From positions 1 through 56,920 of the IMG/VR virus record IMGVR_UViG_3300039159_000083: a stretch of DNA of 56,920 nucleotides; one strand, 5' to 3'. Position numbers and translations under genes: made by a program. Below are positions 15,440 to 45,490 of this stretch, one piece after another. How positions within the stretch are numbered: the stretch's first letter is position 1; each line of letters opens with the position of its first letter. The notes under the pieces are model-generated. The model searched no databases, was not told where the DNA came from, and was given only the letters and a program-made list of their open reading frames with translations. Source of the DNA: a virus.

Positions 15440-15888
15440 TGGAGACCTCCTTCTAGTTCTAGCCTAGATATATTTGATACTTGATAATCATCTAGACCTA
15501 TTGGATAATCAGCATTAGTAATAAGCTGGCCTCCTTCTCTTCTACATTCCCTTCCTCCTTCTATTACATCCATGTAAAGAGTATCTCTCTTCACATATAA
15601 AGTTTTTACCTTTAGATGAATGATAGGTCTATTGCCAAAGCTAATACCTATACTCTTAATATAGGTCTGAGGCATGTTAGATTGAATGATAAAATCTTCT
15701 AGTGTTTCTGTTACTCCCTTATCTGTCTCACCATATATAAGAGAAGATGCAAGGAAGGGTAAATCACATCCTTGTAATAGTTCTTGTAGGGTAATTTTAT
15801 TAGAAGCGGCATAAAGAGGTTTGATCTTAGAGTAGATAGAGAAGGCTCCACTAGCCATTAGGGTTATTGGTTCTGTTCTAGTTATCAT
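15427..15888 (-). CDS. Hypothetical protein in fibre cluster, 153 residues
   Basis: ATG 15886-15888; the upstream sequence CCCCTAC gives only a weak ribosome site, so coupling to the gene ending 11 bases before is likely. A second in-frame ATG lies 10 codons in. The sequence has no Cys cluster, membrane segment or enzyme motif. Its end overlaps the TTG start of the 469-residue gene. I do not recognise it. Confidence 0.6.
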   Translation of the reverse strand: MITRTEPITLMASGAFSIYSKIKPLYAASNKITLQELLQGCDLPFLASSLIYGETDKGVTETLEDFIIQSNMPQTYIKSIGISFGNRPIIHLKVKTLYVKRDTLYMDVIEGGRECRREGGQLITNADYPIGLDDYQVSNISRLELEGGLHWKQ

Positions 15889-15899
15889 TTTGTAGGGGT

Positions 15900-22660: not shown

Positions 22661-23893
22661 ATGCTTGATACAGTAGGCAAAAGGCAAGGTTATCTATCTG
22701 GCTCTATAGATGGAGATGGATATAGCATAAACTACGAATATGATAAGCCAGATAGGAGCAATACAGAGATAGTTAAAAGGGTGGGATTTACTAATACTGA
22801 CTTATCAATATTAGAAGCTTTTAAGTCCTGTCTTAATTCCTTGAACGTTAGCTATGGAATGAGTTCACAAAAGACCGTGACAAATAAGGATAGCTATAAC
22901 ATCTCCTGTTCTAATAAAGAAGGGCTATGTGTGTTATCTAGTAATACATACTTAAAGGTTTTATATAAGGAAGAGGCCCTAACTAAAACTTTAGAGTCTG
23001 TTTATCTTCATGGAGATAAACCTATAAAGTTATGTAGCTTTGAAGATATGGACTTCAAATTAGGCTGGCTGGCGGCTATGTTAGATTCTGAGGGTTGTAT
23101 CCTTTATAGCAAAACTAACTACTCAATAAGGATATGTAATACGGACTTAGAAGTTATTGAGTATTGTCAACAGATATTAGAAAGCTTGCATATAGCCTAT
23201 AAAACTTACTCTCATAATAAACAGAATAAAGATGGAATAGTTAGAAAGCCTACACATCAAGTTTGTATATTACAAGCCAAACATATATTAAGGTTTAGTA
23301 GCTTAGTGCCTATCCAATCTGAAAGGAAGATAGAGAAACTAAAAGATCTATGTACTTATTTAAGTAGAGATAAATATAGATTTTCCACAGAAGAACTTGC
23401 TAGGATGCATGTAGAAGAAGGTCTTAGCTTCTCAGAGATAGGTAGAAGATTAGGTGTTGGCGAGTGTAGGTCAGGAGGTTTGGCTAAGCAGGTAAGGGAA
23501 GGAGGGTATGTAGTCAACACTATAAAATCTAGAGGGCCTTATGCAGCTTTGGATGTTAATGACTCTCAGCTTAAGGAGGTCTATGATAGACTTCTGAAGG
23601 GTGAATCAATGAGCCAGATACTTATCTCTATGGGCTTTAAAGCTAATAGAGGTACTACTATATATAAACTATTAGACTCTAAAGGTTATAAAGTAGATAG
23701 CGGTCATGGAAAACTATATAAATTATTAGATACATTGGGAGCAGAAGAGATTATAAAAAGGTTGGACTTAGGAGTTACAGCTTCTAGAATACTTAGAGAT
23801 GCTGGAATTGAAACTAGGTCTACAACTTCTTTGTTTAACTATCTAGAAAAAGCTGGTCATGATGTAACTAAGTATAGAAGAAAGAAGAACTAA
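22661..23893 (+). CDS. Free-standing LAGLIDADG homing endonuclease
   Basis: A 410-residue protein on the strand opposite to all neighbours. Two LAGLIDADG motifs are visible: GYLSGSIDGDGY (10-21) and LGWLAAMLDSEG (134-145), each with the acidic residue needed for metal-dependent DNA cutting. The C-terminal half carries helix-turn-helix-like units: SFSEIGRRLGVGE near 255, and two later segments with SMSQILISMGF and TASRILRDAGI, suggesting extended DNA contacts. ATG 22661 lacks a clear ribosome site, as is common for such genes. It sits between two tail genes and is followed by a weak terminator. It is not inside an intron or intein that I can see. Confidence 0.88.
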   Translation: MLDTVGKRQGYLSGSIDGDGYSINYEYDKPDRSNTEIVKRVGFTNTDLSILEAFKSCLNSLNVSYGMSSQKTVTNKDSYNISCSNKEGLCVLSSNTYLKVLYKEEALTKTLESVYLHGDKPIKLCSFEDMDFKLGWLAAMLDSEGCILYSKTNYSIRICNTDLEVIEYCQQILESLHIAYKTYSHNKQNKDGIVRKPTHQVCILQAKHILRFSSLVPIQSERKIEKLKDLCTYLSRDKYRFSTEELARMHVEEGLSFSEIGRRLGVGECRSGGLAKQVREGGYVVNTIKSRGPYAALDVNDSQLKEVYDRLLKGESMSQILISMGFKANRGTTIYKLLDSKGYKVDSGHGKLYKLLDTLGAEEIIKRLDLGVTASRILRDAGIETRSTTSLFNYLEKAGHDVTKYRRKKN

Positions 23894-23910
23894 TTATATT
23901 AGATAACTGG

Positions 23911-23934
23911 GGGCACTATTTCAAGTGTCTTTTT
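23911..23934 (+). terminator. Weak intrinsic terminator after the homing endonuclease
   Basis: The stem GGCACT with AGTGTC (one G-T pair, 6-base loop) is followed by TTTTT on the plus strand, 18 bases after the endonuclease stop. It would limit read-through into the DUF4326 gene. Confidence 0.55.
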
Positions 23935-23949
23935 ATATAAGGAGTACAA

Positions 23950-24327
23950 ATGGTAAAAATAGATAACTTAAGAAATACTAAGATAGGAATCAGAGTTGAT
24001 AGAAGTTCTGCCCTTGGTAATCCTTTTGATCTAGTTAATACTAGAGATGTGGTTATGAGACTTAGAGTATGCAATGCTTATCAAGAATACTTTGACTTAA
24101 TAGAAAAGGGGGCCGAACCTATTAATATAGTAAAGCTTCTTTGTACTAAGTACTTTGTCAGTATTCATTCCACATGGAAAGCACCAAATAGAAGAATGTT
24201 CTTGGAAGCTCTTAGTGATATAGGAGCTAATGACACTCTTCTGTGCTGGTGCACTCCAGAGTTGTGTCATGCCTTAACTATAAAGGAATGGAAGGATTCT
24301 AATAAGTCCTTAGAAACAGATTCCTAA
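23950..24327 (+). CDS. DUF4326 family protein
   Basis: 125 residues, ATG 23950 with a strong AGGAG site. It shows the family marks: LGNPF (residues 22-26), a helix with Arg, and the C-terminal LLCWCTPELCHALTI (97-111), whose Cys-Trp-Cys and Cys-His (Cys99, Cys101, Cys106, His107) may bind metal. DUF4326 proteins are scattered in phages and bacteria and have no established function that I can state. The 3' end overlaps the end of the 905-residue minus-strand gene by 29 bases, tail to tail. Together with the homing endonuclease it forms a plus-strand island in a minus-strand region, consistent with later insertion. Confidence 0.85.
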   Translation: MVKIDNLRNTKIGIRVDRSSALGNPFDLVNTRDVVMRLRVCNAYQEYFDLIEKGAEPINIVKLLCTKYFVSIHSTWKAPNRRMFLEALSDIGANDTLLCWCTPELCHALTIKEWKDSNKSLETDS

Positions 24328-27016
24328 AGAAGGAAGACTTATTAGTAGCGGTAGACATGTCTACCCTAATTACTATAGAGGTTCTATAGGAAAGTATCTC
24401 CTCTCCTGTATTATCATTTATGGTTGTTTCATAATTACTTAATCCTTCTATATACCAAGATCCCGTATATAGAAGAGAAGCGGCATCTAATAATAGAAGG
24501 GGCGACCTTTTTAATAACTTAGTCCATGTCTGAGTATTATTAGAACTGATATAGATATCTAAGTAATCTAACTTAGATATTGAATAATCCAGAGAGACTT
24601 CTACATTTCTATAAGAAGTATGGAAGTCTCTACTTTTTGATACCCAAGTACATAAAGGATTAGAACTAGAGCCGATAAATATAGAGGAACCTATATCTAT
24701 TACAGGTAAAGAATATAAAGGGTTATTAACAGATAGGGTTATCTGTTTACTTTTAGTCTTATCAAAGTTGCCAGCTAGAGTCTCTCCTAAATTATCCATA
24801 AGGGTAATGTCAGTCTCTACTGATATCTGGGCAGGGATATGATAATCAATATGAGAGAAATCTTTATCTGAAGATAACTCAATCTCCAAAGAGGATTCAT
24901 TACTATCTGAAGTATTGGTATCTATATTAATACAGAGTAACTTAGTATTATCTATTTCCCAACTAGAGGTAATTCCCTTAGTATGAAAAGAATTAAGACT
25001 AGGATTAAGCTGGGCTACATCATAAACACCTAATCTAACGTTATTAACATAACTATAAACTAGTAGACTATACTCATTATTTGTAAGGGTTATAGGATAA
25101 TCTAATGAAATACTAGAGACTCCAATGTTTAGATAATCCCTTAATAATAAATCTCCACTATATAAGACTTTATCCTCACAAGGAACACCTAATCTATTCT
25201 CTACTATGTTTAGACATAGAAGGGGTTTAGTGGGGTCTTGAATACTTATAGGTATAGAAGTAATTCTAACCCCTAACCTAGAAATGATACTACTTCCATT
25301 TATATAAAAAGATTGGGCCACCAACTTATTACTAGATATATAAGGTCTTATAGCTAGATTAGTATTACTAACCCCAGAAAAATTAGATACTAAATTAAGT
25401 CTTTCTGAATGTAGAATATCATTCGATCTTTTCAAGTAGATATGATAATTATCTGATATCTCTATATCAGGAGTTATAAAACTAACTTCTAATGTTCCAT
25501 TAACATCTGATCTAAGTTGTGAGGGATATATAAAAGTAGAGATTAATATCTGGTTTATATATAGGGAATAGGATGTAGAAGCTGACAATCCTTTATATCT
25601 TATAAATAAATTGGTAGGTCTAAGTTTATTAGTATCATCTTTATATATTGCTATTGGATAAATAGATGCTGTTATAGATGTAGCTAATAGGTTAATTGAA
25701 GAAGTTGCCCGCTCTTCTTTAATAGAAGAAACCCTAGATATAGATGGGTATAAATAAGAAGGGGAACCATTACTATTTATAACTCTAATGAAATTTACTC
25801 CTTTAATACTTGGCTTAAGTATTGAAGAGCTTAATGCACTCTGTACTCCTTTACTAGATATTAGAGCATTGAAAAGCGGATGATAGACATTGGAGTATTC
25901 TGGAGTAAGTAAAGGGTCTGAGTGTATATTTATTAATGAGTATTGGTTATCTTTATTCTGAGCTATAACTTGAGAGTATATGCTGGCTAGATTACTCCTA
26001 TTATTATTACTGGCCTCATCTAATAGGGATAAATCTTTATTAGATAAGGCCCTAGAAGTAGAAGGATTTATTTCTATTCCTTCTACTCCTTCTATTCCTA
26101 TAATTACTTGTGCCAATTCTATATAGGGCTTATATACTAATTCTCTAGATATGGTAGAAGTAACTTCTGATAATTCTAAGATAGGATCTTCATTAGTATT
26201 AGTAATAGTCACACCTTCACTATTACTAATATAGGTTAACTCCTGAGCTATATACGCCCCCACAAGACAGATAGATAGTATAGGTGTAGTATTTATCCTT
26301 ATAGAATAAGTACCTGCTATAGAGGGGATAGAGATTAGATGTGGATAATTTAGAGATACTCTTATTCCTTCTATATAGGCATGACCTGGAGTAATAGTTA
26401 AGGAAGTGGAATTAAGAGTATAAACTTGTAAACCTTTATCTATATAATTATCAGTTTCTTCTTTCCAACTGAGACTTAGTAAATCCTGTAGTTTAGATGT
26501 AATAGATGCAGATACTTCTAGCTTATCTTTTACTTTAGATATGTAAGCTATTGGATAACTATTAGCATTATTTATGGTTAACTTAGATTTGATATAACTA
26601 CGTTTAGCACCAATAGCTCCAGCAATAGGGCCAGCTATACTTGGGTCTAATAATATAGTTGAGTTATCTAATTCTAATAGATTAGATTCAATACCAATAT
26701 GGGAATCACCAAAGGGTAATGTGAGATAAGTGGCATTAATCTCTGATATATAGAATTGATCTTCTATCTCTAAGTAAAACTTACCTCCATTAATAAAGAT
26801 GGTTCTATTAGCTTGAGAAGTTATGGTAATATCTAATCCTTCTATTATATGAAAGGAATCATAAAAGTTAGATATTAATGCACGTGTATTATTATTAGCT
26901 ATTGATTGTAAGTCTAATAGGTCTTCTAACTGAGCCTTCTTATCAGCTCTAGGTAATAATCTAATCCAATCCTTATCTTTATTCCATCTATTACCTAACT
27001 CTTTATTAATAGACAT
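24299..27016 (-). CDS. Large tail/baseplate protein, paralogue of its neighbour
   Basis: 905 residues, ATG 27014-27016, overlapping the preceding gene by 11 bases with AAGGAAT upstream. The N-terminal segment (WIRLLPRADKKAQLEDLLDL, 17-36, then QSIA..NTRAL) aligns with that of the 1398-residue gene before it; the pattern resembles the start of DUF4815-type phage tail proteins. The body is a long array of beta domains rich in Ser, Ile, Asn and Tyr. The C-terminus also matches the paralogue in layout (YRNVEVSLDYSI, then a strand-rich end). It is the last gene of the baseplate operon before the plus-strand island. Likely a baseplate-to-fibre connector, inferred from position. Confidence 0.8.
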   Translation of the reverse strand: MSINKELGNRWNKDKDWIRLLPRADKKAQLEDLLDLQSIANNNTRALISNFYDSFHIIEGLDITITSQANRTIFINGGKFYLEIEDQFYISEINATYLTLPFGDSHIGIESNLLELDNSTILLDPSIAGPIAGAIGAKRSYIKSKLTINNANSYPIAYISKVKDKLEVSASITSKLQDLLSLSWKEETDNYIDKGLQVYTLNSTSLTITPGHAYIEGIRVSLNYPHLISIPSIAGTYSIRINTTPILSICLVGAYIAQELTYISNSEGVTITNTNEDPILELSEVTSTISRELVYKPYIELAQVIIGIEGVEGIEINPSTSRALSNKDLSLLDEASNNNRSNLASIYSQVIAQNKDNQYSLINIHSDPLLTPEYSNVYHPLFNALISSKGVQSALSSSILKPSIKGVNFIRVINSNGSPSYLYPSISRVSSIKEERATSSINLLATSITASIYPIAIYKDDTNKLRPTNLFIRYKGLSASTSYSLYINQILISTFIYPSQLRSDVNGTLEVSFITPDIEISDNYHIYLKRSNDILHSERLNLVSNFSGVSNTNLAIRPYISSNKLVAQSFYINGSSIISRLGVRITSIPISIQDPTKPLLCLNIVENRLGVPCEDKVLYSGDLLLRDYLNIGVSSISLDYPITLTNNEYSLLVYSYVNNVRLGVYDVAQLNPSLNSFHTKGITSSWEIDNTKLLCINIDTNTSDSNESSLEIELSSDKDFSHIDYHIPAQISVETDITLMDNLGETLAGNFDKTKSKQITLSVNNPLYSLPVIDIGSSIFIGSSSNPLCTWVSKSRDFHTSYRNVEVSLDYSISKLDYLDIYISSNNTQTWTKLLKRSPLLLLDAASLLYTGSWYIEGLSNYETTINDNTGEEILSYRTSIVIRVDMSTATNKSSFFRNLFLRTY

Positions 27017-30000
27017 AAGTAGTGATATTCCTTATAACCGGGGGTCTAGTACTTCCAAGAATAGGACTATTAAGTTCTATCTTATAAAACATCTGTCTTC
27101 TATTAATAGAAGGGGATAATCCTTCTACTCTATAAGTCAATTCTTCTAAAAGGAGGGCAGGATCTATTACCTTAGTCATACTAGGTCTAGGTATAAGAGC
27201 TATCCAAATTATCCCATCTTGGGAGGTATAACATCTAATTGGGAAAGAAAGTGGATTAAATACTTCTATGCTAAGAGATACATTATGATAAGGCTGGGAA
27301 TACTCTTTCAGATTAGATATTACTACTCCAGATTGGGAGTAACTATATAAACTAATAGAGGTTCCTTCCAAACTTAATAGAGGGCTGATTCTATTATTAG
27401 AACTCCCTATTCTAGCTCTAACCTTAATCAGGTTAGTAGATTCTATTAATGGTGTACATACATTAGGAAGGAAGTCTATCCAAATATCATCTACTAGATA
27501 TTGATATTGAACATAAGTGTTATAAGGACTTATATCCCTAGTGTTGAGACAGAAATGAGTAGTATTAGCAAAGGATTGATTAATCCCATATTCTCCTAAT
27601 AATATAGTTTCTTCTTCTTGGTTAAATACCAAGCTATTAAATCTATAGGATAAATCCTCATTAGTTTGGGGTATAAGGTCATAACCATTAGGACTAATCC
27701 ATAAATGTCCTTTTCTCAATGGTTGTAATCCTATAGTTTTACCATTAAGTAAATCAGGTTTACCAATGACTGAGGTAAAGATTGAATAACCTTTAGGGGC
27801 GCATATTCCAATACAATACTCTTTACCTGGCAATAGTAATAAGGGGTTATCTAAGAAGAAGGTAGTGTAAGTAGAAGCATCATTAGAATAAGCTAGGCTA
27901 GTATTATGAGCATAGGCAAGTATATAATGCTGCGGTAAGTTATCTACTGATCTAATTACTAAATATATATCTTTATCTAAAGCTATCTCTTTAAGTTTGA
28001 TATCTATTGAGGATAGGTAATTAGCCTCATCTACTGAGAATGTCTGCATTAGATATTCAAAGGGAGGAATAGAACCTGTCTCAGCTATATCCGGATAACT
28101 AAGTGCTAACATTTCATTAGAGCTAGTAAGTATAGTATCTCTAGACCAAAGATGACTAGAAGTAATAGAGGTCTGATTTAATATGTTATTAAATATGGAT
28201 ACTCTTCCTTTTGCACTATTACTAATGAGAGAGTTGATAGACTTAACTTCTATTAAATGAACCCCTGCAGAAATGTTATTTGGTATAGGAAACTTTAGTT
28301 CTATCTGGCCATCTATATCAGACCTAATACCTGCTGTAGTCCTAGATGTATTCTTAATAGTTATATATGAAGTAACTTCTATTCCAGATATATAAAGTCT
28401 AAATCCATTTAATCTAGCTGGAAGATTGGTCACCTTAATATATAATTCACCTCTAGCTAAATCTATATTATTAGTCATTAGATCTATATAGCCATTAGAA
28501 TCTATATAAGAACTATTCACTACAGCATTACCATCTTTAATAGATGAGGCTATTAAATCAGCCGAGGCTCCTAATAAATTATTAACAGAAGACCTTAAAG
28601 AATTAACTATTATTGAATTAGATTTGAGTCTACCCTCACTACCAATGAATGAGCTAATAGGGTCTATTGGAGAAACTTTATTAGCTATATTATTATTAGT
28701 AAATAGAGTAGAAGGATAAACCTGCATTACTCCTTGAGTTGTAATATTAACCTTAGGTATAGCCCTAGACCTTGTTACTCTATCTTGCTCATATAGGTTT
28801 AAAGGAAAAGAAGGTAAAGAAACATAGGAGTCTTGATCTAATCTATTATAAAGAGTTCCTCCCCCATCATATTTGATAGGTATATCCTTACTATTAATAC
28901 TGAGACTAAGAGCTAGTAAGGAGGGAAGTATAGAGGCTGTAGAGAGCGTTAGGTTAATAGATGAAGGATTTATCAAGGGATCATTATAAAGCCCTATAGG
29001 AGAATGTAATGGGTCAATAGAAGACCTTAATAAAGAAGATAGAATCTCATTATTAATTGCATTCTCTCTTATCTTTTTAGATAGGGCATTAATATCACTG
29101 AAAGTCCATCTCTTAGAATTAGATGGGTTAATATCTATAGAGTTATGTCTAAGTATAAATTGGGATAGGATTAATAAGTTATCAGGAGCCGCAGGATAAT
29201 AAGGATTACTACTATTAGGGCTGAGTACATAAGATATTTGACCTTCTTTATCTATAGTTAATATCCCTGCTTGAGAGAGGTAATAAGTATAGTCTATAGA
29301 AAAGGTATAACCAGAAGCGGGTTTCTTACCTATAAAGGTGAGTGAGTCGGTCTGTGGATTAAAAATATAATCAGTACCTAACTCTAATTCTTGAGTATAG
29401 ACATAAGTAATAAGATAGCTGGAACCTATTTCAGGTTCTATACTATTTACTAGATTAATGCCCCAATCAATCTGATGTTGATTAATAAGATGATAGTCTC
29501 TACCTTCAATAAAAGAAGTGCCGCCTTGTTCTATAGATAATACTCTAACTATGGAATCTTCCATTAGAGTATCAATACCATTTAGTATTGGACTCCTATT
29601 AACTATTACTTGATTAGCTATCCTTTCAGCAGTTAGTCTTTTTATCTCTTTGACTGGCTTAAAACCTAGTTGGTATGAATTAAGAGAGGGATTAGTATTA
29701 AGTCCTGTTTCATATAAGTCCCATCTAAGAGTACGATTATTAACACTACTCTTAATTACTACACCTTCATTATTAGAAGAGAAAAGTAAAGAGTTAGTGC
29801 TAGATTTAGATATCTCTACATTAGCTCTAAGCAATTGTCTTAACGTGTATTGATTTATATCTAGATTAGACCTAGTAGAAAAGATTAGATTAGCTGGGAT
29901 AACTGAGTTTGACTTAAGGTCAGTTACTAAAGCATTTAGTAGAGAATCAATGGATTGAATATTAGACGTAGGGCTAATACTATAAAAGACTCTTATTGGT

Positions 30001-31202
30001 ATAGATATGGAATCATAAGATACGCCTTCTATTACTAACTCAATAACAGTGCTGGAGCTTTTTACTTGATTAAAGTTAGCTGCGGTATTAAATATTAGAA
30101 GTCTAGAAGTATTAGGTTTAGTACCAGAGTATAAGAACTTAACACCTTTAACTTCTTTAGCTTCTAATCTCTTAGGTATTTCTATTAGTAAGGGTTGAGT
30201 TTTTATTACTCGATAACCTTCTACATAAGCTATGCCAGGATTAATAGATAGGACTTCCCTTTTGGGTGCAGTAGTTTCTATATTTACTAAGGTTAATAGT
30301 ATAGAAGATAACTCAGTCTGCTTAACTATTAAACTTGCCTTCCTATTTATAATCTCTGCTTTTAATAATTCTATTCTAGATGATAAGTTTTCTATGAATA
30401 GCTGAGTATAAGAATCTGATTCTAATAAATCCCTTTCTAAATTTATTAGATTAGTTTCTAGTTGGCTTATCTCTCTTTGTATATCTCTTATATTTAAGAG
30501 TGTATTATCCCTTTGAGTATTACTATTGGAGAGTTTAGTATTAAGTGAATCATCTTCTATACGTGATGAGTATATGACCTCAAAGCCTTTAACTCTAAAG
30601 TTACCTGATCTTTCATAGGTATAAAGGGCCTGTTGATCTAGAAGCTTAGAATTAATACTGGTAGACTTTTGAAGTACCTGGCCTGACCTAATCTTACCTA
30701 TAGGGAAAGCATCAGCATCATTTACTACTATGGATGCTTTCCATACTAATCTAGAGCTACCTTCCATACCATAGAGGGCCCCACCTTTAATTGGGTCTCT
30801 AAGACTTGGGTCATCTATTTCAGTAATAACTCTTTCTAGTATGGATACTCCAATGATATGTTCATTTGTATTAGGAATGATCAATACTTGAGCGGGAACC
30901 TCTAATACTATTCCTTCCACATATATCTGACCAAATGAAATGGAATAAGAAGAATCATTATTAGATATTGATAGTCTGTCTATTACTAAGCCAGAAACTA
31001 TAGACCCAGAACTAAATAGACTGCTAAGGGCGCGGGATTGATTGGATAATAGGATAGACTGCATCTCTATTAGTTCAGCAGTCTGTATAGGTCTTCCTGG
31101 TACTGGGAGTATCTTTACCCAACCATCAGCTTCTTTATATCTATCAGGGTAAATAGATCTGTCATAGTTAAATAGATTCTTCATATAATTCTTATAGGTC
31201 AA
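27006..31202 (-). CDS. Giant tail/baseplate protein, 1398 residues
   Basis: The longest frame uses TTG at 31200-31202, overlapping the upstream gene by 11 bases. An ATG 6 codons later (31182-31184; MKNLFNYDRS) is an alternative and neither has a strong ribosome site. N-terminal pattern WVKILPVPGRPIQTAEL (28-44) followed by QSILLSNQSRAL is DUF4815-like and shared with the 905-residue paralogue. A coiled coil is expected at about 225-310 (NIRDIQREISQLETNLINLE). The remainder is beta-rich with repeated short domains and no enzyme motif. It probably projects from the baseplate periphery and carries or links fibres. Family assignment is moderate; virion role is likely. Confidence 0.8.
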   Translation of the reverse strand: MTYKNYMKNLFNYDRSIYPDRYKEADGWVKILPVPGRPIQTAELIEMQSILLSNQSRALSSLFSSGSIVSGLVIDRLSISNNDSSYSISFGQIYVEGIVLEVPAQVLIIPNTNEHIIGVSILERVITEIDDPSLRDPIKGGALYGMEGSSRLVWKASIVVNDADAFPIGKIRSGQVLQKSTSINSKLLDQQALYTYERSGNFRVKGFEVIYSSRIEDDSLNTKLSNSNTQRDNTLLNIRDIQREISQLETNLINLERDLLESDSYTQLFIENLSSRIELLKAEIINRKASLIVKQTELSSILLTLVNIETTAPKREVLSINPGIAYVEGYRVIKTQPLLIEIPKRLEAKEVKGVKFLYSGTKPNTSRLLIFNTAANFNQVKSSSTVIELVIEGVSYDSISIPIRVFYSISPTSNIQSIDSLLNALVTDLKSNSVIPANLIFSTRSNLDINQYTLRQLLRANVEISKSSTNSLLFSSNNEGVVIKSSVNNRTLRWDLYETGLNTNPSLNSYQLGFKPVKEIKRLTAERIANQVIVNRSPILNGIDTLMEDSIVRVLSIEQGGTSFIEGRDYHLINQHQIDWGINLVNSIEPEIGSSYLITYVYTQELELGTDYIFNPQTDSLTFIGKKPASGYTFSIDYTYYLSQAGILTIDKEGQISYVLSPNSSNPYYPAAPDNLLILSQFILRHNSIDINPSNSKRWTFSDINALSKKIRENAINNEILSSLLRSSIDPLHSPIGLYNDPLINPSSINLTLSTASILPSLLALSLSINSKDIPIKYDGGGTLYNRLDQDSYVSLPSFPLNLYEQDRVTRSRAIPKVNITTQGVMQVYPSTLFTNNNIANKVSPIDPISSFIGSEGRLKSNSIIVNSLRSSVNNLLGASADLIASSIKDGNAVVNSSYIDSNGYIDLMTNNIDLARGELYIKVTNLPARLNGFRLYISGIEVTSYITIKNTSRTTAGIRSDIDGQIELKFPIPNNISAGVHLIEVKSINSLISNSAKGRVSIFNNILNQTSITSSHLWSRDTILTSSNEMLALSYPDIAETGSIPPFEYLMQTFSVDEANYLSSIDIKLKEIALDKDIYLVIRSVDNLPQHYILAYAHNTSLAYSNDASTYTTFFLDNPLLLLPGKEYCIGICAPKGYSIFTSVIGKPDLLNGKTIGLQPLRKGHLWISPNGYDLIPQTNEDLSYRFNSLVFNQEEETILLGEYGINQSFANTTHFCLNTRDISPYNTYVQYQYLVDDIWIDFLPNVCTPLIESTNLIKVRARIGSSNNRISPLLSLEGTSISLYSYSQSGVVISNLKEYSQPYHNVSLSIEVFNPLSFPIRCYTSQDGIIWIALIPRPSMTKVIDPALLLEELTYRVEGLSPSINRRQMFYKIELNSPILGSTRPPVIRNITTYVY

Positions 31203-31755
31203 TCATTAGTTCTATCTTCTGTTTCTTATTTACTAATCTATCTATGGGTGTAGAGTAAGCAACCCAATGAAGTATACCTTGATCTTCTACATAAGAAGAA
31301 GGATAACTAATTAAATTAGGGTTATGTTCTTCTATTAAGGAGACATCAGTATGTAACCCTAGTATTCTAATAGAGGAGGCTAGATAGTAATCAGGTTCGA
31401 TTAGACAAGAAATATATAAATGAGTAGGGCTAGGTAAATACATGCCCTTCTCTAAAGTTATATCTGTTAAATCTCTAATCACATGCCATTGCTTATTTCT
31501 AAATAGGAACTCACCACAAGGAGAGATAAGAGCCGGTAAACACTCATATAACCTAACTATAGATATAAGTTCTGTCACCTCTGTAAGAGAGGAGGAGGGA
31601 TTAGGAGGATTAGTATCATTGATGTTAGTATCAAATACATCTAACCATGCAGAGTCCTTAGATAAGGACATATACTTATTAGAAGGGTCTCTAACAAAGG
31701 ATAGAATCCTATTAGCCTTATTAGATAAAGTAAGTGAATTATGTATGATAGACAT
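31192..31755 (-). CDS. Small baseplate wedge-like protein
   Basis: 187 residues, ATG 31753-31755 overlapping the flavoprotein stop by one base (TAATG), with GGAGAG upstream. The pattern MSLSKDSAWLDV...NPPNPSSS (29-56) recalls phage wedge proteins in which a short strand precedes a Trp-Asp...Pro-Pro-x-Pro segment, as in many cyanophage baseplate proteins. The rest alternates strands and helices. No enzyme motif. Its place between the I-like wedge region and the two giant tail proteins supports a baseplate role. The family call is tentative. Confidence 0.6.
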   Translation of the reverse strand: MSIIHNSLTLSNKANRILSFVRDPSNKYMSLSKDSAWLDVFDTNINDTNPPNPSSSLTEVTELISIVRLYECLPALISPCGEFLFRNKQWHVIRDLTDITLEKGMYLPSPTHLYISCLIEPDYYLASSIRILGLHTDVSLIEEHNPNLISYPSSYVEDQGILHWVAYSTPIDRLVNKKQKIELMIDL

Positions 31756-32864
31756 TAACTATTTATACTCTCCATTATTTCCATAGCTGTAATACCTGAG
31801 GATAGTATTGAGGCTTGTCTAGGCCCATCATATCTAAGAGATAGAATACCTGTAAAGTATATATTACTATTTGGGGACTTAAATCCTTTTATTAATAGAG
31901 GAAAGTTTTTATCACTAGGAAGCCTTTCTACATTATTAAACATAGGACTGCTATTTAAAGAAGGTGTGGTGCCAGTACAGATAACAATGTAATCCACTTC
32001 TTCAACTATAGGTTCCATTTCTCTAGTTGAGGTAGGATTAATTATGTCTACATCAGATAGCTGATTAGATACCTCTTCTGTAATAGAAGGTTGCCAAGCC
32101 TTTACCTGTTTCAAATAACTTTCTTGGAGTGAGTTATCTCCATGGAAAGATCTATAAAAAGATCCTAAAGCACTTCTTGGTCCCCAGTCCTGATAAACAG
32201 GTGAGGGATAACGAGTTATCTTATGTTCTTTACTAATAGCCCAATGTACCTGGTTAGTCAAAGATAAATGAGCAACATACTCAGCACTTGCTTGACCAGA
32301 ACCTACAACTAAAATAGTCTTCCCTTGTACAGCAGTTCTTAGACATTCCGCTCTACTGATTATCTTAGAATAAAGATGAGTCTTATTTATCCATACAGGC
32401 ACCTTAGATAAAGAGTTAGAACCTGTGGCAATAATTACTTCATCTACTCTTAAGATATCCCTATCATCTAATCGGATCCAACCTTCTCCCATATCAATAG
32501 CATTCTTAGGTATATGAATTACACCTCTAGATATCAACTTATCAAAAGTATGTTCTAAATAAGAAAGAAACTCAGTTCTATTTACAGAGCAAGGACATTC
32601 TTCTGCTTCTTGTTGAGTAACATAAGAATAGGGAGTTCCCAAATAATTATCTAATCTCCATTCATCATAACTAGAATCTAAGAAGGAAACTAAATCAAAG
32701 GAGACAGGACTTCTCATGATAATGTCTGGAATTATATTAGGGTGTTTCCATGCAGATAGAGGTGTCCTATCTATAAGATATACCTTATTACCCTCTCTGA
32801 TAGCACATATAGCTATGGATAAGGCTCTGGGGCCTGACCCTATTATTCCTATAACACTCTTCAT
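31755..32864 (-). CDS. FAD/NAD(P)-binding oxidoreductase in baseplate operon
   Basis: 369 residues, ATG 32862-32864 with GGGAG at spacing 5. Two nucleotide-binding folds are clear. The FAD site is GIIGSGPRA at residues 6-14, ending the second strand with LIDR. The NAD(P) site is ILVVGSGQAS at 184-193. The ATG motif VIIATGSN is at 143-150, a second VICTGTTP at 294-301, and IYFTGI at 335-340 fits the C-terminal FAD contact. This layout matches the flavin monooxygenase / lysine-ornithine N-hydroxylase-like superfamily. Substrate unknown. Tail genes flank it on both sides and it shares a one-base stop-start overlap with the next, so it is made together with baseplate proteins. No signal peptide. 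Confidence 0.88.
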   Translation of the reverse strand: MKSVIGIIGSGPRALSIAICAIREGNKVYLIDRTPLSAWKHPNIIPDIIMRSPVSFDLVSFLDSSYDEWRLDNYLGTPYSYVTQQEAEECPCSVNRTEFLSYLEHTFDKLISRGVIHIPKNAIDMGEGWIRLDDRDILRVDEVIIATGSNSLSKVPVWINKTHLYSKIISRAECLRTAVQGKTILVVGSGQASAEYVAHLSLTNQVHWAISKEHKITRYPSPVYQDWGPRSALGSFYRSFHGDNSLQESYLKQVKAWQPSITEEVSNQLSDVDIINPTSTREMEPIVEEVDYIVICTGTTPSLNSSPMFNNVERLPSDKNFPLLIKGFKSPNSNIYFTGILSLRYDGPRQASILSSGITAMEIMESINS

Positions 32865-32905
32865 ATAACTCCCATATTGTAATTGTAAGATTAATCTAAC
32901 TCACT

Positions 32906-35900
32906 CTAAAAGAAGTGGGTGGGTATTATAAACATCTTCTCTGCTAACCCTGACCTAATAATACCTATTAAATTATTAGAAGGTGGGGTTTCTAGAAGGG
33001 TTACTTCTATAACATCTCCGACTAAGAAAGCTTGTACATAAATAGGCCCTTCATAAATAGCATCTAAGTTTACTAGTAAGGGGTAAGGTCTAAAAGGGTC
33101 ATACTTAGTTACACAACAAATGGATGTATATTGAGAGGTAATAATACCTGAGGAGATATTTATATAAGTATCTCCAGAGTCTAAATCCTTATCACAACTT
33201 TCTATTTGTATATGTTCTTCTATTAATACATTAGTAGCTATAGGTTTAGCATCTTCTATTATCTTGGCTATATCAGCATTAAATGCTGAACCTATAGTTT
33301 CTATTATTATAGAGCTAGTATTAGCATAGGTCTGACCTGAGTAATATGCAGAAGAAGAATCGCTATCTACATTATTCTCCATAAAGGAACTATAACCATA
33401 TATAGGTACTTCTTTTATCTTGGCGCTAATACCTTGGTTATTTAACAAGGTTATAAAATCATTAGATGAACTAGGCTTATCAGCTATTAAAGTCCTAATA
33501 CGTTCTTTAATACTAGAGTCAGTCTCTCCTATCTTTCTAGTTAGGGAAAAGTCATTAGCCCATCTATTAGTAAGAGAATCAGAAGAAAGGGATAGAGATA
33601 TACCATCTTTAGTTCTTCTATTAAGCACCCACCAAGTAGAAAGAGATTTAGAGAAAGACATTAATATTCTTCCTATATTTCCATTAGGACTAATAGCTCT
33701 TTCACTAGGCCAAGTATAATTCTTAGGTATAAGAGAAATTAACTTCTTATAGGTTGAGGTTCTATTAAATAAGAGAGTCTCCACATCATAATAACTATGA
33801 GAAGGAAACAATTCTTTATTGGAGAAGCCTTCAGATAAGCAGGTACTAAGATTAACGGCTGAGTTTATCATCCTATTAGTTATCTGTTCCTTATCTATAT
33901 TTCCCCTATTAACATCTAAGACTGGTTCAAAGTCTAAGACGTAATCTCTATCCCTACTTAAATATAAAGAAGCCTCTAGAAGATTAAGGGTAGTTAAAGC
34001 CTTTTCTATAGAAGAAGGAACTTTTAAATCATGTATGGGGATTATAGAATAACTAGACTTATAAATGGAACTTGATAAGCTTTGATCCTTATTACTTCTA
34101 TATCTACCCCCAGTAATAGATCTAACAGAAACTCCTGTGCTATTTGTTATTATTCTATCTACTTGAGAACCATTAATACTTTTAGTCTTAGTCTTTAAGT
34201 CTTTAATAATTACTTCTATGGCTTCAGACCTTATAGTTTCATTAGCAAATAATAAACCATATATTGATGATTCTAAAGAAGGGGTGGGGTCATCATAAGA
34301 TTGGAAGAATAACTTCTCATTTGAAGAGTATAAATAATCATATATAGATGTATATAAGTCTGTAGCTACATCTATATATTTAGAATTAAGGGTAATATCA
34401 TGTACTTTCATCAGACTTAAACAAACCATTATAGAGGTGGATGTTTGATATTCCTTATCTATAATTGATTGAGTATAAATATCTGAGTGGTTCCATCCTT
34501 TATAAACTAAGTTAGATTTAGAATCTACCTGTCTTATTAAGTATTCACTAACCTCTTTAATATCTATGTCATATTTAGTGGAAGAGGTAACTAATTTATA
34601 TATGGCAAGTAGATATAAATACCAGGCTATAGCTCTATTATCTATCTTTCTAGAACAGAGAGTGTCATTAGTCCAAGTACTAAAACATTCCTCACTAAAT
34701 AGATCTGGTTCAAAGGGGCTTATTTCCCTATCAAGGTAAAGCCTATCATTATATATATCTTGGGCTGATGAGTAAGTATTGATAATGGCCGGGATAGAAC
34801 CAGACCTAGCTAAACTATTCCTATCTATAAGAAGGGAAAGAGTAGATAAATTAGATTCTACTAATGCTAATAACTTAGGGTCTAAATAAATACCCTCATA
34901 AGTACCAAAGCAATCATCTGTAATAGTGTATTTAGATAAGAGTATGTTAATGAGGGAGATAGATAGATTCTCTAGGTCTACTGATTGATCCTCATTATTA
35001 TAATTAAGTAAGGGTTTAGTATATGTACGAGTTAATCCATTAGTATATTGGTAACCTGTCATATGATGCAGGATAGTAGTAGATACCTGAGAGTTAACTC
35101 TTTTTAATATAACTATTTTTACTCCTTCACTAATTGGTATGGTAGAAGAGAAAGATAGGTCAGACCTAATAGGAATATTACTCTGTTCTATTATTGGCTC
35201 ATAAGTAAGGGGATGCAGATAACCAATATCAACTACATAAACATGATCATTACTAGTAACCCCATTCAACCATATCTCTGAGTTATTACCATTACTTCTA
35301 TATCTAGTAACTCTATTGTCAGGCCCAGTCAGCTTAGTTTCTGAGCATAAGTAATCACAACTACCTATAGAGGAAGGGAGGGCCACATAAGTCCCTAGAA
35401 GAGCCTGTACGGGGCTTCCTCCTATTTGAGTTAGATAGATATGAATATCAATAGCTAAACTTGCATATCCTTGTATCTGGCTGAGAGATAAGTTGGGGTC
35501 GGATAATAGGAACTGATAATTATTACTAGGTAGAGATATTAAAGAGGGCGCTATCCCATTACCAGATAGGAAAAGATCATTAATCTGATTAGGGTCATTA
35601 TATAAACTATTAGGTAGCTGACTTATTAAGCTTCCCTCACTATTATAAATACCAATAAGAGTAGTGCAATCCATTGAGCATTGATCAAAACAAGGATCTT
35701 CTATGTCTAGTTCTGCGTATAGGAAATAGGTCTTATCAAAACAATCATCTGTACAACCTAATTCACTATAAGAAGATTCCTCTATTGAAATAATTAGATT
35801 ATCTATTCTATAGGTGGAATATAATCTGGTTCCATTTACTTTATATCCAGTAATAAAAGGTTCTGTAGTAATCCCTACATAAGGGATGGGATCAATAGGA

Positions 35901-36352
35901 ATACAATCAGAAGGAGTTAAATCTCTAATAGTATATTTACCTATATCATCTTCATATACACTCTCACCCTGTGCAGTAAAAGGGAGTCTAACTTTACATA
36001 AGGGATTAAAATCTCCTATACATCCATCTGATACACATCCTTCTTGAAAGGTACCTGTAGGCTGGTATGGAGAGCCTACATTAGATTCTAATGTCCATAT
36101 ACCTTGGGAGTTAAAGCAGCCTTCCTCAAAGCAACCAGTAGTAAATGGGGAGTCATCTTTAGCTGGGGCTATACCTATAACTCTTCCATCTATAAAGGAG
36201 TTAGTGTATGTATTACCTCTCAGTATTTCTAGATAGATGGAAGACCTTAAAGGGTCTTTACTATCTTCTCTTAGATATGAACACTCTCCCCCTTTCCTAT
36301 CAAGGGATAAGAAGGATTCATAACAGAATTGTTTCTTACTAATAATTGCCAT
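32906..36352 (-). CDS. I-like baseplate wedge protein with extra domains
   Basis: 1148 residues, ATG 36350-36352, 4 bases after the J-like stop. N-terminal 230 residues are Cys-rich with a repeated CFxxxCF-like pattern (GCFEEGCF 73-80, GCVSDGCIGD 106-114, GCTDDCFDK 199-207, CFDQCSMDC 221-229). A beta-rich part follows. Residues about 570-720 are a run of paired helices with aromatic residues (NRAIAWYLYLLAIYKL, GWNHSDIYTQS) that resembles an alpha-toroid as in six-hairpin glycosidases. The C-terminal part (around 960-1080; GETDSSIKERIRTLI, GISAKIKEV) resembles the tail protein I / wedge family. Gene order W-J-I supports the last call; the helical domain call is weaker. Confidence 0.75.
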   Translation of the reverse strand: MAIISKKQFCYESFLSLDRKGGECSYLREDSKDPLRSSIYLEILRGNTYTNSFIDGRVIGIAPAKDDSPFTTGCFEEGCFNSQGIWTLESNVGSPYQPTGTFQEGCVSDGCIGDFNPLCKVRLPFTAQGESVYEDDIGKYTIRDLTPSDCIPIDPIPYVGITTEPFITGYKVNGTRLYSTYRIDNLIISIEESSYSELGCTDDCFDKTYFLYAELDIEDPCFDQCSMDCTTLIGIYNSEGSLISQLPNSLYNDPNQINDLFLSGNGIAPSLISLPSNNYQFLLSDPNLSLSQIQGYASLAIDIHIYLTQIGGSPVQALLGTYVALPSSIGSCDYLCSETKLTGPDNRVTRYRSNGNNSEIWLNGVTSNDHVYVVDIGYLHPLTYEPIIEQSNIPIRSDLSFSSTIPISEGVKIVILKRVNSQVSTTILHHMTGYQYTNGLTRTYTKPLLNYNNEDQSVDLENLSISLINILLSKYTITDDCFGTYEGIYLDPKLLALVESNLSTLSLLIDRNSLARSGSIPAIINTYSSAQDIYNDRLYLDREISPFEPDLFSEECFSTWTNDTLCSRKIDNRAIAWYLYLLAIYKLVTSSTKYDIDIKEVSEYLIRQVDSKSNLVYKGWNHSDIYTQSIIDKEYQTSTSIMVCLSLMKVHDITLNSKYIDVATDLYTSIYDYLYSSNEKLFFQSYDDPTPSLESSIYGLLFANETIRSEAIEVIIKDLKTKTKSINGSQVDRIITNSTGVSVRSITGGRYRSNKDQSLSSSIYKSSYSIIPIHDLKVPSSIEKALTTLNLLEASLYLSRDRDYVLDFEPVLDVNRGNIDKEQITNRMINSAVNLSTCLSEGFSNKELFPSHSYYDVETLLFNRTSTYKKLISLIPKNYTWPSERAISPNGNIGRILMSFSKSLSTWWVLNRRTKDGISLSLSSDSLTNRWANDFSLTRKIGETDSSIKERIRTLIADKPSSSNDFITLLNNQGISAKIKEVPIYGYSSFMENNVDSDSSSAYYSGQTYANTSSIIIETIGSAFNADIAKIIEDAKPIATNVLIEEHIQIESCDKDLDSGDTYINISSGIITSQYTSICCVTKYDPFRPYPLLVNLDAIYEGPIYVQAFLVGDVIEVTLLETPPSNNLIGIIRSGLAEKMFIIPTHFF

Positions 36353-36356
36353 GTTC

Positions 36357-37427
36357 TTATACCACTCTTATGGAAATATCTAAAGTACCCATATCGCTAA
36401 TTAAAGAGCTGGTAGGAAAGATAGGTAGAGCAGGACTTAATACTTTTACTTTATTAACCCCAAGCACCTTTCTAGCAGCATTATTAATATCGGAAGGATC
36501 TACAGTATCATCTAAACCTAGGTTAGAAAAGTAGTTAGATAATGATTCTCTAATAGAGGCAGAGATAGTAGAGGCATAAGAAGAGGAGACTACTATTTCT
36601 AAAGATACGTCTATAGGTTTAGTTCTTATAGGTCTGACTAGAAAAGCAGTACCTATGGGTTTGATTTCTCTTATAAGATTAGTAATTACTTTAATAGATT
36701 CACTATCAGTAATATCTACAAATACTGAGAAGTAACCCGTGACTGGTTGATGCTCCTTAATATAGACTCTACTAATAAATGGGAGCTTCCTTACTTCTTC
36801 TCTAATATAAGAAAGAGTACCTTTCTGAGTTAGATTACCTGAAAAGGTAGCCTTAATCCTATTCCTAAAATCATCATCTGATTCTATAGAAGAGCCATTA
36901 GAAAGAGAGCCTATAGCTACTCTACTTATTGGGTCTCTATATTTACCTATAGTAAAGGTATGAGAAGGAAAGAGATTACTATATAGAACAGACCCTTGAC
37001 TTAAGTTATAAGCTTCGCCAGTAGTAAGGGCCTCTATAACTATAGGAGTTTCTATAGCAGCAGGTAAAGATATAGTATTAGATATCTTAAATTGTAGTAA
37101 CTGGTCTGAGGATTGCAGAATAGTGCCCGTAGGAAGATTAGTACTAGGCCCTTTACAAAGACATGTACCTATAGCATATGTTCCTCTTAATCTAGATATA
37201 CCAAAGTCTCTAGCCTTATCATCTAAACGGGAACCCTTTGCAGTAGATATAAAAGAGCTATTTATTATTTCTTCTATCCTAGTGTCTTGTTCTGCTATGA
37301 CAGTTGATACAGCTCTAAACAAGATATATAAATTACTAAAATTAGAAAACTTAGCCATAGGAGAACCTAAGGTATCCAAGCTTTTCCTTATGGACTCTAT
37401 GATATATTGGATAGTTCTAGATTGCAT
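36357..37427 (-). CDS. Baseplate wedge protein, J / gp47 family
   Basis: 356 residues, the usual length for P2 J-like proteins. ATG 37425-37427 with AGGAGAG, overlapping the gp25-like gene by 11 bases. Family marks: an N-terminal helix pair, SRLDDKARDFGISRLRGTYA (96-116 region), a Gly-rich turn with LPTGTIL, TTGEAYNLSQGSV, the segment DDDFRNRIKATFSGNLTQKG near 205, and a later YIKEHQPVTGYFSVFVDI. It builds the wedge ring of the contractile baseplate together with the gp25-like and I-like proteins on either side. Confidence 0.93.
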   Translation of the reverse strand: MQSRTIQYIIESIRKSLDTLGSPMAKFSNFSNLYILFRAVSTVIAEQDTRIEEIINSSFISTAKGSRLDDKARDFGISRLRGTYAIGTCLCKGPSTNLPTGTILQSSDQLLQFKISNTISLPAAIETPIVIEALTTGEAYNLSQGSVLYSNLFPSHTFTIGKYRDPISRVAIGSLSNGSSIESDDDFRNRIKATFSGNLTQKGTLSYIREEVRKLPFISRVYIKEHQPVTGYFSVFVDITDSESIKVITNLIREIKPIGTAFLVRPIRTKPIDVSLEIVVSSSYASTISASIRESLSNYFSNLGLDDTVDPSDINNAARKVLGVNKVKVLSPALPIFPTSSLISDMGTLDISIRVV

Positions 37428-37866
37428 GGGTCTCTCCTATTACTAAGTTCTCTACAATATCTTCTCCATCTACTGAATAGTTAATAAGAACATTTACCGT
37501 ACTAGAAGAAGTATCTCCATCTGGCACTGCTACTGTAATAGAATTAACTTGTATATTATTGTCATCTACATAAGAAGTAGCTTCTTTAACATTGGCGTAA
37601 GCATCACTTATCCATTGATAAGTAAGGGGGTCAGATAATTGATTATAAAGTTTATCCCCATAAGAACTATCTAAATGAACTATTCCGCCTCTTTCAATAG
37701 CCCATTTAGCTATCCATTTAGGTGGAGTAACCACAGATCTTCTAAGAAGATTAGTAGAACTAGCTGGAGCATCTTCAAGAATAATGTCATAAGTATTACC
37801 TTGTTCTCCTAGACCAGTCTTAATGATGGCTATATCTTCGTTATATAAACTAATATCTACACTCAT
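37417..37866 (-). CDS. Baseplate wedge protein, gp25/W-like
   Basis: 149 residues, ATG 37864-37866 with GGGGAGGGG upstream. Pattern fits the gp25/W family: an N-terminal segment leading to LLRRSVVTPPKW, then GGIVHLDSSYGDKLYNQLSD (60-79), a helical middle and two C-terminal strands with NSITVAVPDG. The exact Glu-Pro-Arg signature seen in many gp25 proteins is not evident. It immediately precedes the J-like gene, as W precedes J in P2, which strengthens the call. It forms the inner wedge that initiates sheath assembly. Confidence 0.82.
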   Translation of the reverse strand: MSVDISLYNEDIAIIKTGLGEQGNTYDIILEDAPASSTNLLRRSVVTPPKWIAKWAIERGGIVHLDSSYGDKLYNQLSDPLTYQWISDAYANVKEATSYVDDNNIQVNSITVAVPDGDTSSSTVNVLINYSVDGEDIVENLVIGETHAI

Positions 37867-44202: not shown

Positions 44203-45489
44203 TTATGGCCTTCCTATCTCTGCTCTGTATTCTGCTGTCTCCTCGTTCTTCTCATATGATAGTTGTTCTTTACTATCCTCAAATTGAAGTACTCCTGCTG
44301 GATTAATATTGGAACTATTCTCATTAGAACCTACTCTCACTTCAAAGTGAAGATGGACTCCGGTACTACCTCCAGTGGTTCCTTCTATACCCAATACAGT
44401 ACCAGCTTTAACCTCTTGTCCTTCTGCTACAAGTACCTTAAAGAAGTGCATATACCTAGTCCATATCTTATTAGGGTGTTCTACTTCAATAAAATTACCT
44501 GCCCCACCAGCCTGATAACTTACTAATATTACTTTCCCATCTAAAGGACTAACTATATTAGCTCCACTCACCCCATCAGGGCTAACTGAAGCCAGGTCTA
44601 CCCCATTATGATTAGGCCTTCTTACAGATCTATAAGTACCTCTAAGTGAAAATAGTACTCCTACACCATTACTAGCATCATCTCTAAGAGGCCAAGCAAG
44701 AAGACCATTAGGTAGATTAACTGGCACCTTAAGTAAGGTAGCCTGACCACTGGCCCCTGGTTTAGTAAGTGTCCCTCCAGAAGTAAGGGATGTGCCAGCA
44801 CCAAAGCCTGCTACTGCTTTCATATTACATCCAGTAGTTATCTTAGCAAAGGAAAATGTATAATCAAACTTAGGGCAATCACTTCTAGTAGCAGAGAAAG
44901 AAGAGTTACCAGCTACTAGGTCAGCATTACTAGATAATGAGGATGGGCTACCATTAGATACTTTAGAAGAGCCTGGTAAGGGTTTACCATTAAACTTCTG
45001 GAAGGTAGCTACTACCTCTTGAGTGGTCTTAGTTCCTTGACCTTTATATCTATATGGAGGTAAAGAAGCCCATTCCCAAGCTAATCCTGCTGGTAAGGCT
45101 CCAGATTTATTAGCACCATCTCCTGATAATGCCCCTACCACATCTCCTTCTATTACTCTATTAAGAACCCCTCTTTGTTCCATACGGATTACAGCAGCTA
45201 GGTCTTGGTCTCTAGGGTTAGAGAAGTCTAAACCACCACCAGCGGCTCTATTAAGGTCATCCCATGTATTGCCACAGTATTGGTATCTACCTACGGCTCT
45301 AGGCCCATTAACATCAAAGCTGCAATCTGATCCTGGAAAGGGATGAGACTTACTATTAAGGGGAAGAGTAGAACCCCCAAAGGAACAACCATAGTTATCG
45401 TCACACCCTTCTGCTTCTGCTATGGTATTAAGCATAGCTATTACATTAGGATTCTTTAGTAAGGATTCATAATACTCTCTATTAGCCAT
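44203..45489 (-). CDS. Tail lysin: GH104-type muramidase fused to M23 peptidase
   Basis: 428 residues. Domain 1 (about 15-168) matches lambda endolysin-type transglycosylases: IAEAEGCD with likely catalytic Glu27, GPRAVGRYQY (62-71), DFSNPRDQDLAAV, GVLNRVIEGDVVGAL and the AWEWASLPPYRY segment. A Ser/Gly linker (about 170-205) follows. Domain 2 (about 260-405) is a zinc M23 endopeptidase: NHNGVDLA (His294, Asp298), His348 in RYMHFF, and HLHFEV (His379, His381). No signal peptide. It sits among hub and baseplate genes, so it is probably carried on the virion to open the cell wall at infection, not the exit endolysin; a double use cannot be excluded. Confidence 0.93.
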   Translation of the reverse strand: MANREYYESLLKNPNVIAMLNTIAEAEGCDDNYGCSFGGSTLPLNSKSHPFPGSDCSFDVNGPRAVGRYQYCGNTWDDLNRAAGGGLDFSNPRDQDLAAVIRMEQRGVLNRVIEGDVVGALSGDGANKSGALPAGLAWEWASLPPYRYKGQGTKTTQEVVATFQKFNGKPLPGSSKVSNGSPSSLSSNADLVAGNSSFSATRSDCPKFDYTFSFAKITTGCNMKAVAGFGAGTSLTSGGTLTKPGASGQATLLKVPVNLPNGLLAWPLRDDASNGVGVLFSLRGTYRSVRRPNHNGVDLASVSPDGVSGANIVSPLDGKVILVSYQAGGAGNFIEVEHPNKIWTRYMHFFKVLVAEGQEVKAGTVLGIEGTTGGSTGVHLHFEVRVGSNENSSNINPAGVLQFEDSKEQLSYEKNEETAEYRAEIGRP

Positions 45490-45490
45490 A

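Follow-up and report, generated by a model that had tools for sequence, protein, structure and literature searches.

The DNA analysed here, referred to below as the window, is a virus record of 56,920 bases. Within its tail operon lies an intact gene for a flavoprotein of the Ma-LMM01 gp106 family, set among baseplate and tail fibre genes that are all read from the same strand (Table 1). The original prediction had placed a complete flavoprotein with two dinucleotide folds inside a baseplate operon and had noted a TAATG overlap with a small wedge-like gene. Both statements are borne out by the open reading frame, its GSGPRA and GSGQAS motifs and its Pfam matches, and the overlap with the next, 187-aa reading frame amounts to one base. 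Promoter and terminator signals flanking the flavoprotein gene were at the level found in shuffled sequence.

Table 1. Flavoprotein gene, its motifs and the surrounding tail genes in the window (positions are those of the whole record).
Feature	Position	Strand	Evidence or comment
Flavoprotein gene, Ma-LMM01 gp106 family (phrog_29209)	31755..32864	-	369 aa, ATG start, TAA stop
RBS-like GGGAG	32869..32873	-	4 bases 5' of the flavoprotein ATG
FAD-binding motif GSGPRA, residues 9-14	32823..32840	-	kept in all readable copies but L026
Family signature MRSPVSFDL, residues 50-58	32691..32717	-	aligns with MQVSFLKDL / LQTPFMADL of N-hydroxylases
NADP(H)-binding motif GSGQAS, residues 188-193	32286..32303	-	sequence motif
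C-terminal signature YDGPRQ, residues 345-350	31815..31832	-	family alignment
BW3TFN, baseplate wedge 3-tail fibre network connector, A511 gp105 type	31192..31755	-	187 aa; PF25691 E 5e-8; phrog_1394
BW3-type baseplate wedge protein	32906..36352	-	1148 aa, 23 Cys; clade profile
Baseplate J protein (BW2)	36357..37427	-	PF04865 E 6e-23
Small wedge protein	37417..37866	-	weak phrog_43 baseplate wedge match
Fibre-network protein, A511 gp106-type	27006..31202	-	1398 aa; phrog_877 E 3e-142; tblastn (A511 gp106 = H132)
Second phrog_877-type fibre-network protein	24299..27016	-	905 aa; PHROGs

The flanking genes had been described as an I-like wedge gene and a small wedge-like gene, a description that stands in outline and can now be made more exact. 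Profiles built from the clade recover A511 gp103, gp104, gp105 and gp106 as a series (E 1.6e-18, 4e-13, 4.5e-21 and 6e-143, respectively), which identifies the I-like gene as BW3 and the small wedge-like one as BW3TFN. The latter is reported to connect wedge 3 to the tail fibre network (PMC10811340, PMC11406892). BW3TFN is located downstream of the flavoprotein gene, with BW3 and then the J protein upstream. For the 1148-aa BW3 protein itself all Pfam matches fell below the cut-off, including a weak glycosyl hydrolase 88 match at residues 565-687 (E 0.0043), and PHROGs gave none.

The window flavoprotein scores above the Pfam cut-offs for Lys_Orn_oxgnase (43.6 bits, 2.7e-11, cut-off 21.3) and Pyr_redox_2 (37.4 bits, 2.6e-9, cut-off 26.1), and is assigned by PHROGs to phrog_29209, a family annotated as function unknown (E 3e-50). 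NCBIfam equivalog cut-offs were not reached, the best model being ArsO (35.5 bits against 425), with histamine N-monooxygenase at 15.4 bits against 700. While a PDB search with the single sequence gave only weak and partial matches, the best PDB profile matches were diamine hydroxylases, namely the putrescine and cadaverine N-hydroxylases. An AlphaFold2 model (mean pLDDT 89.7) matched putrescine N-hydroxylase and SidA best in Foldseek, and the best 24 rows of a VIA-align comparison were all N-hydroxylases, with Z scores of 26.9-29.8 over 331-340 of the 369 residues and KtzI in front (Z 29.8). Within a viral structure library the MaMV-DC homologue was far ahead of all else (E 1e-28, the next being 8e-9). 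The comparison with N-hydroxylating monooxygenases suggested in the original prediction is therefore right at the level of the fold, and the modelled structure places the protein in the class B N-hydroxylating monooxygenase fold family. KtzI, PvdA, SidA, DesB, DfoA and putrescine N-hydroxylase share this fold over its whole length (Z 27-30), together with FAD and NADP(H) motifs. The phage protein differs from these enzymes, however, in sequence (14-19% identity), in length (369 residues versus 425-501), in carrying signatures of its own (MRSPxSFDL, WxPSIT and YDGPRQ), in having Phe in place of the substrate Lys, and in being a phage-only protein encoded within a baseplate operon.

The position of this Phe bears on the likely substrate. 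Profile alignment pairs the phage MRSPxSFDL with MQVSFLKDL of KtzI and of the 9nns protein (MbtG/EtcB), and with LQIPFIADL, LQTPFMADL and LQTPFMSDL of the putrescine, cadaverine and DesB-type hydroxylases. The phage family thereby has Phe56 at the substrate-lysine position, where KtzI and 9nns have Lys and the diamine hydroxylases Ala or Ser. We take the Lys of FLKDL to bind the substrate carboxylate in the lysine/ornithine hydroxylases (SidA/PvdA/KtzI), and its replacement by Phe makes hydroxylation of lysine or ornithine doubtful. GenBank names Ma-LMM01 gp106 a 'putative lysine/ornithine N-monooxygenase', a label that appears right for the fold and doubtful for the function. No Cys was invariant in flavoprotein alignments of 4, 11 and 17 rows, and assignment to a thioredoxin-reductase-like family was rejected because the protein lacks a redox Cys pair.

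Genes of this family are rare. A tblastn search detected the flavoprotein in 10 of 50,697 phage records, all of them cyanophages at about 34% identity, nine being of Ma-LMM01 type and one a Microcoleus phage; annotated relatives were confined to these same two kinds, Ma-LMM01-type Microcystis phages and a Microcoleus phage. The fibre protein was matched in 746 phage records by the same method, many of the matches being partial. Full-length homology at 34% identity links the window protein to Ma-LMM01 gp106 and the MaMV-type homologues (phrog_29209), whose annotation goes no further than putative lysine/ornithine N-monooxygenase or hypothetical. As in the window, Ma-LMM01 gp106 stands directly before gp107/BW3TFN (annotated 'virion structural protein'), which is followed by gp108. 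The Ma-LMM01 and MaMV-type proteins are, on the other hand, about 30 residues shorter, and other genes separate BW3 from the flavoprotein gene. In Ma-LMM01-type phages (L002, L004) these intervening genes occupy several kb, and in MaMV-DH01 they include an annotated transposase.

Among viral contigs, a search with the single flavoprotein sequence returned no close relative, and alignment-based scans found many loci. For genome contigs, an earlier scan gave no flavoprotein homologue, and a second, alignment-based scan gave one match. It lies on a contig of 68 kb from the cyanobacterium Elainella saxicola, on which the phage genes follow the same order. Across 292 genomes of the cyanobacterial phylum the only full match was the seed genome, on a phage-like contig, with one further partial match (E 7e-14). 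The hosts of the clade are most likely cyanobacteria.

The resulting homologue set comprises 36 rows and 28 distinct sequences, most at 31-42% identity; two contigs were entered twice (L015/L024 and L025/L036), and a further two rows (L027 and L037) have identical gene coordinates and perhaps represent a single genome. In these last two, the fibre-network gene at 11679-16069 is present as two ORFs of 858 and 614 aa and is possibly split or frameshifted. BW3TFN directly follows the flavoprotein gene in all 36 rows, on the same strand and with a gap of -43 to +63 bases. The distance to BW3, on the other side, varies from -82 to 5,955 bases among the 26 rows in which BW3 was called: it is short in 9 (-82 to 56 bases), while in the other 17 BW3 lies 838 to 5,955 bases away with other genes intervening. 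Scans with BW3TFN as bait yielded three contigs, one already known, and scans with the fibre protein yielded five, all previously known; every one of these contigs carries the flavoprotein gene, although the baits were taken from gene-bearing phages and the scans are thus not a free survey. Conversely, the gene was absent from the slot in all six outgroups inspected (A511, Twort, phiAGATE, EF24C, SAC12B and Jeremy), which share the J-BW3-BW3TFN-gp106 order. These observations indicate that the flavoprotein gene belongs to the fibre-connector module.

The gene is also under purifying selection, with dN/dS of 0.07-0.45 over 13 pairs, values comparable to those of its neighbours. The decaying chance insertion that had been offered as the outcome refuting the original prediction is ruled out for the family by this selection together with the fixed place in 36 of 36 rows. 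Both the FAD GxGxx and the NADP(H) GxGxx(A/S) motifs are present in 26 of the 28 distinct sequences, the window included. The two exceptions are L014, a fragment without the N-terminus, and L026, in which neither motif is intact. The NADP(H) and signature motifs are kept in 27 of the 28, a count in which the L014 fragment does not extend to the FAD-motif region.

The copy on L026, a contig of 152 kb, is the single one there and is full length (379 aa), and it matches a profile built with L026 left out (E 2.5e-48), yet it lacks the FAD glycines, the NADP(H) motif, WxPSIT and DGPR. Overall it keeps 21 of 47 conserved positions, compared with 88-100% in the other 19 representatives. Its AlphaFold2 model has the same fold (pLDDT 91.9, Z 29.2 to KtzI), a result to be taken with caution, as the model leans on an alignment that contains functional homologues. 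The constant place of the gene beside BW3TFN, together with its retention here despite the loss of its cofactor parts, suggests that the protein functions within or on the tail and not in host metabolism. L026 is, however, a lone sequence on a very long branch for which no close relative was found, so early decay is possible, and from its sequence the copy could be such a case.

These observations lend themselves to a reading, to which we would give an even chance, in which the protein is a dedicated tail-module flavoprotein that is catalytic in most lineages and also plays a non-catalytic part at the BW3TFN fibre connector. Its ancestor would have been an N-hydroxylating flavoprotein monooxygenase, presumably acquired once by an A511-like baseplate operon, where it came to lie between BW3 and BW3TFN; the position of the gene and its absence from the outgroups are observed. 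The flavoprotein is probably co-translated with BW3TFN, would bind FAD and NADPH in the lineages that keep the motifs, and would most likely dock on BW3TFN or on the fibre network. There it may oxygenate an amine or thiol target without a free alpha-carboxylate, such as a protein side chain, either during assembly or as part of the virion; BW3TFN itself has no invariant Lys or Cys as a possible target. A non-catalytic role at the connector beside catalysis could be the reason why the full-length, cofactor-dead copy of L026 has been kept.

The first alternative to be weighed is that the protein is a soluble auxiliary metabolic enzyme. It would N-hydroxylate an amine or diamine, a polyamine- or siderophore-like host metabolite, in the course of infection, and would sit in a late operon for timing only. 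Such an enzyme would account for the Lys_Orn_oxgnase match and the corresponding name in the Ma-LMM01 record, for the putrescine and cadaverine N-hydroxylases being the closest solved relatives by profile, and for motifs that are conserved in most copies; indeed, the pocket-type conservation in 27 of 28 sequences equally fits a soluble enzyme merely co-transcribed with tail genes. We nevertheless regard this explanation as unlikely, given that the slot is identical in every phage examined, that the 292 cyanobacterial-phylum genomes offered no close cellular source, that Phe occupies the substrate-lysine position, and that the annotation of the neighbourhoods listed shows no partner genes of siderophore type.

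A second alternative, which develops the idea of redox action on tail cysteines in the original prediction, concerns the cysteines of BW3. The Cys content of this protein is 0.95-3.82% (mean 2.07) over 21 distinct clade sequences, compared with 0-0.43% in four outgroup BW3 proteins called by profile and with no Cys among 1043 residues and a single one among 882 in two further proteins assigned by position; a 582-aa protein upstream in L032 was not called by the BW3 profile and was left out of these counts. No such difference between clade and outgroup was seen in BW3TFN, J or the fibre proteins. A high Cys content of BW3 is thus a trait of the whole clade, a point that the present analysis adds. 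Cys79 (of CX4C type) and the distal Cys1053 of the window protein are conserved in 20 of 20 sequences, Cys74 in 19 and Cys556 in 16, when the BW3 fragment of L010 and the duplicate contigs L024 and L036 are left out. BW3 also has numerous CX3-4C pairs flanked by acidic and aromatic residues (the window, L003, L018, L025, L031 and L034), with up to 50 Cys in L003. Cys74, Cys79 and Cys1053 may bind metal or form disulfides.

Agrobacterium phage Milano provides a precedent for the latter: it has disulfide-linked wedge proteins as well as proteins of the gp8/BW3TFN fold, its baseplate is cross-linked by disulfides of BW1, BW2 and BW3, and contraction requires their release (PMC10811340). The Milano garland proteins of the gp105 fold, by contrast, have no Cys, and the main text of that paper mentions no redox, oxidoreductase, oxidase or reductase (PMC10811340). 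By analogy, the flavoprotein could be the redox partner of the Cys-rich wedge. Drawing on NADPH and O2, it would oxidise thiols either itself or by way of H2O2 or low-molecular thiols, and so drive or adjust BW3 disulfides that latch the baseplate as in Milano. The Herelleviridae A511 and Twort have the same J-BW3-BW3TFN-gp106 order without a flavoprotein gene and with a nearly Cys-free BW3. Yeast FMO, an enzyme that oxidises thiols for folding without a CXXC of its own, is a precedent. On balance this partnership seems improbable to us. The flavoprotein has no invariant Cys, so action of the thioredoxin-reductase type on tail cysteines would have no resident Cys pair to use; the BW3 Cys may bind metal instead; and in L026, where the cofactor motifs are lost, BW3 still has 22 Cys, the conserved ones included. 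Since only one clade is involved, the co-occurrence of the flavoprotein with a Cys-rich BW3 may also reflect shared ancestry. As originally stated, moreover, the idea is not supported, for the fixed partner is BW3TFN and not the Cys-rich I-like protein, which is 0.8-6 kb off in 17 of 26 rows. Judged from these sequence comparisons, the clade-wide Cys content of BW3 keeps redox action of the flavoprotein on this protein a possibility, though a weakened one.

A purely structural reading, in which an enzyme fold was recruited only as a piece of the fibre network and FAD is retained for stability, would explain the invariant place beside BW3TFN and the intact but cofactor-dead copy of L026. We give it little credence, as a pure scaffold would have no need of the NADP(H) and signature motifs found in 27 of 28 sequences.

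A bolder reading would be a redox-latched baseplate in this cyanophage clade, in which a phage-specific NADPH/O2 flavo-oxygenase at BW3TFN forms or tunes Cys cross-links, or makes some other oxidative side-chain change, in BW3 or the fibre network during assembly, with tail triggering tied to redox state and with the protein reduced to a cofactor-free structural piece in at least one lineage. We put this forward as speculation with a slim chance of being correct.

Few molecular machines have been studied as thoroughly as contractile tails, and we know of no redox enzyme among the baseplate parts of solved structures. The dihydrofolate reductase and thymidylate synthase of the T4 tail, the former an NADPH enzyme, have classically been reported as baseplate components, a claim that is disputed; they differ from the phage flavoprotein in having an unrelated fold and belonging to an unrelated operon. 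A literature search found no relevant report of a flavoprotein in a virion or baseplate, none on a cyanophage ornithine N-monooxygenase and none on My-WqHQDG. Gp106 goes unmentioned in the main text of the Ma-LMM01 transcriptome paper (PMC5780444), and the available part of PMC9927357 contains no mention of a monooxygenase; the Ma-LMM01 genome paper may say more on gp106. Should the flavoprotein prove to form part of the fibre connector or to act on it, tail assembly or triggering would gain a chemical step, and the cofactor-dead L026 protein would then represent a pseudoenzyme that a phage tail has recruited. Microcystis phages that carry the gene are in culture, which makes the question directly testable, and such phages matter for toxic blooms.

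The tail operon of the window shows two further features. A LAGLIDADG_3 protein (E 7e-14) and a DUF4326 protein are encoded at 22661-24327 on the plus strand, opposite to the minus-strand tail genes around them, and this pair is likely a mobile island. Within the operon itself, a protein with an M23 peptidase domain adjoins an amidase_2 protein (44203-47338, minus strand).
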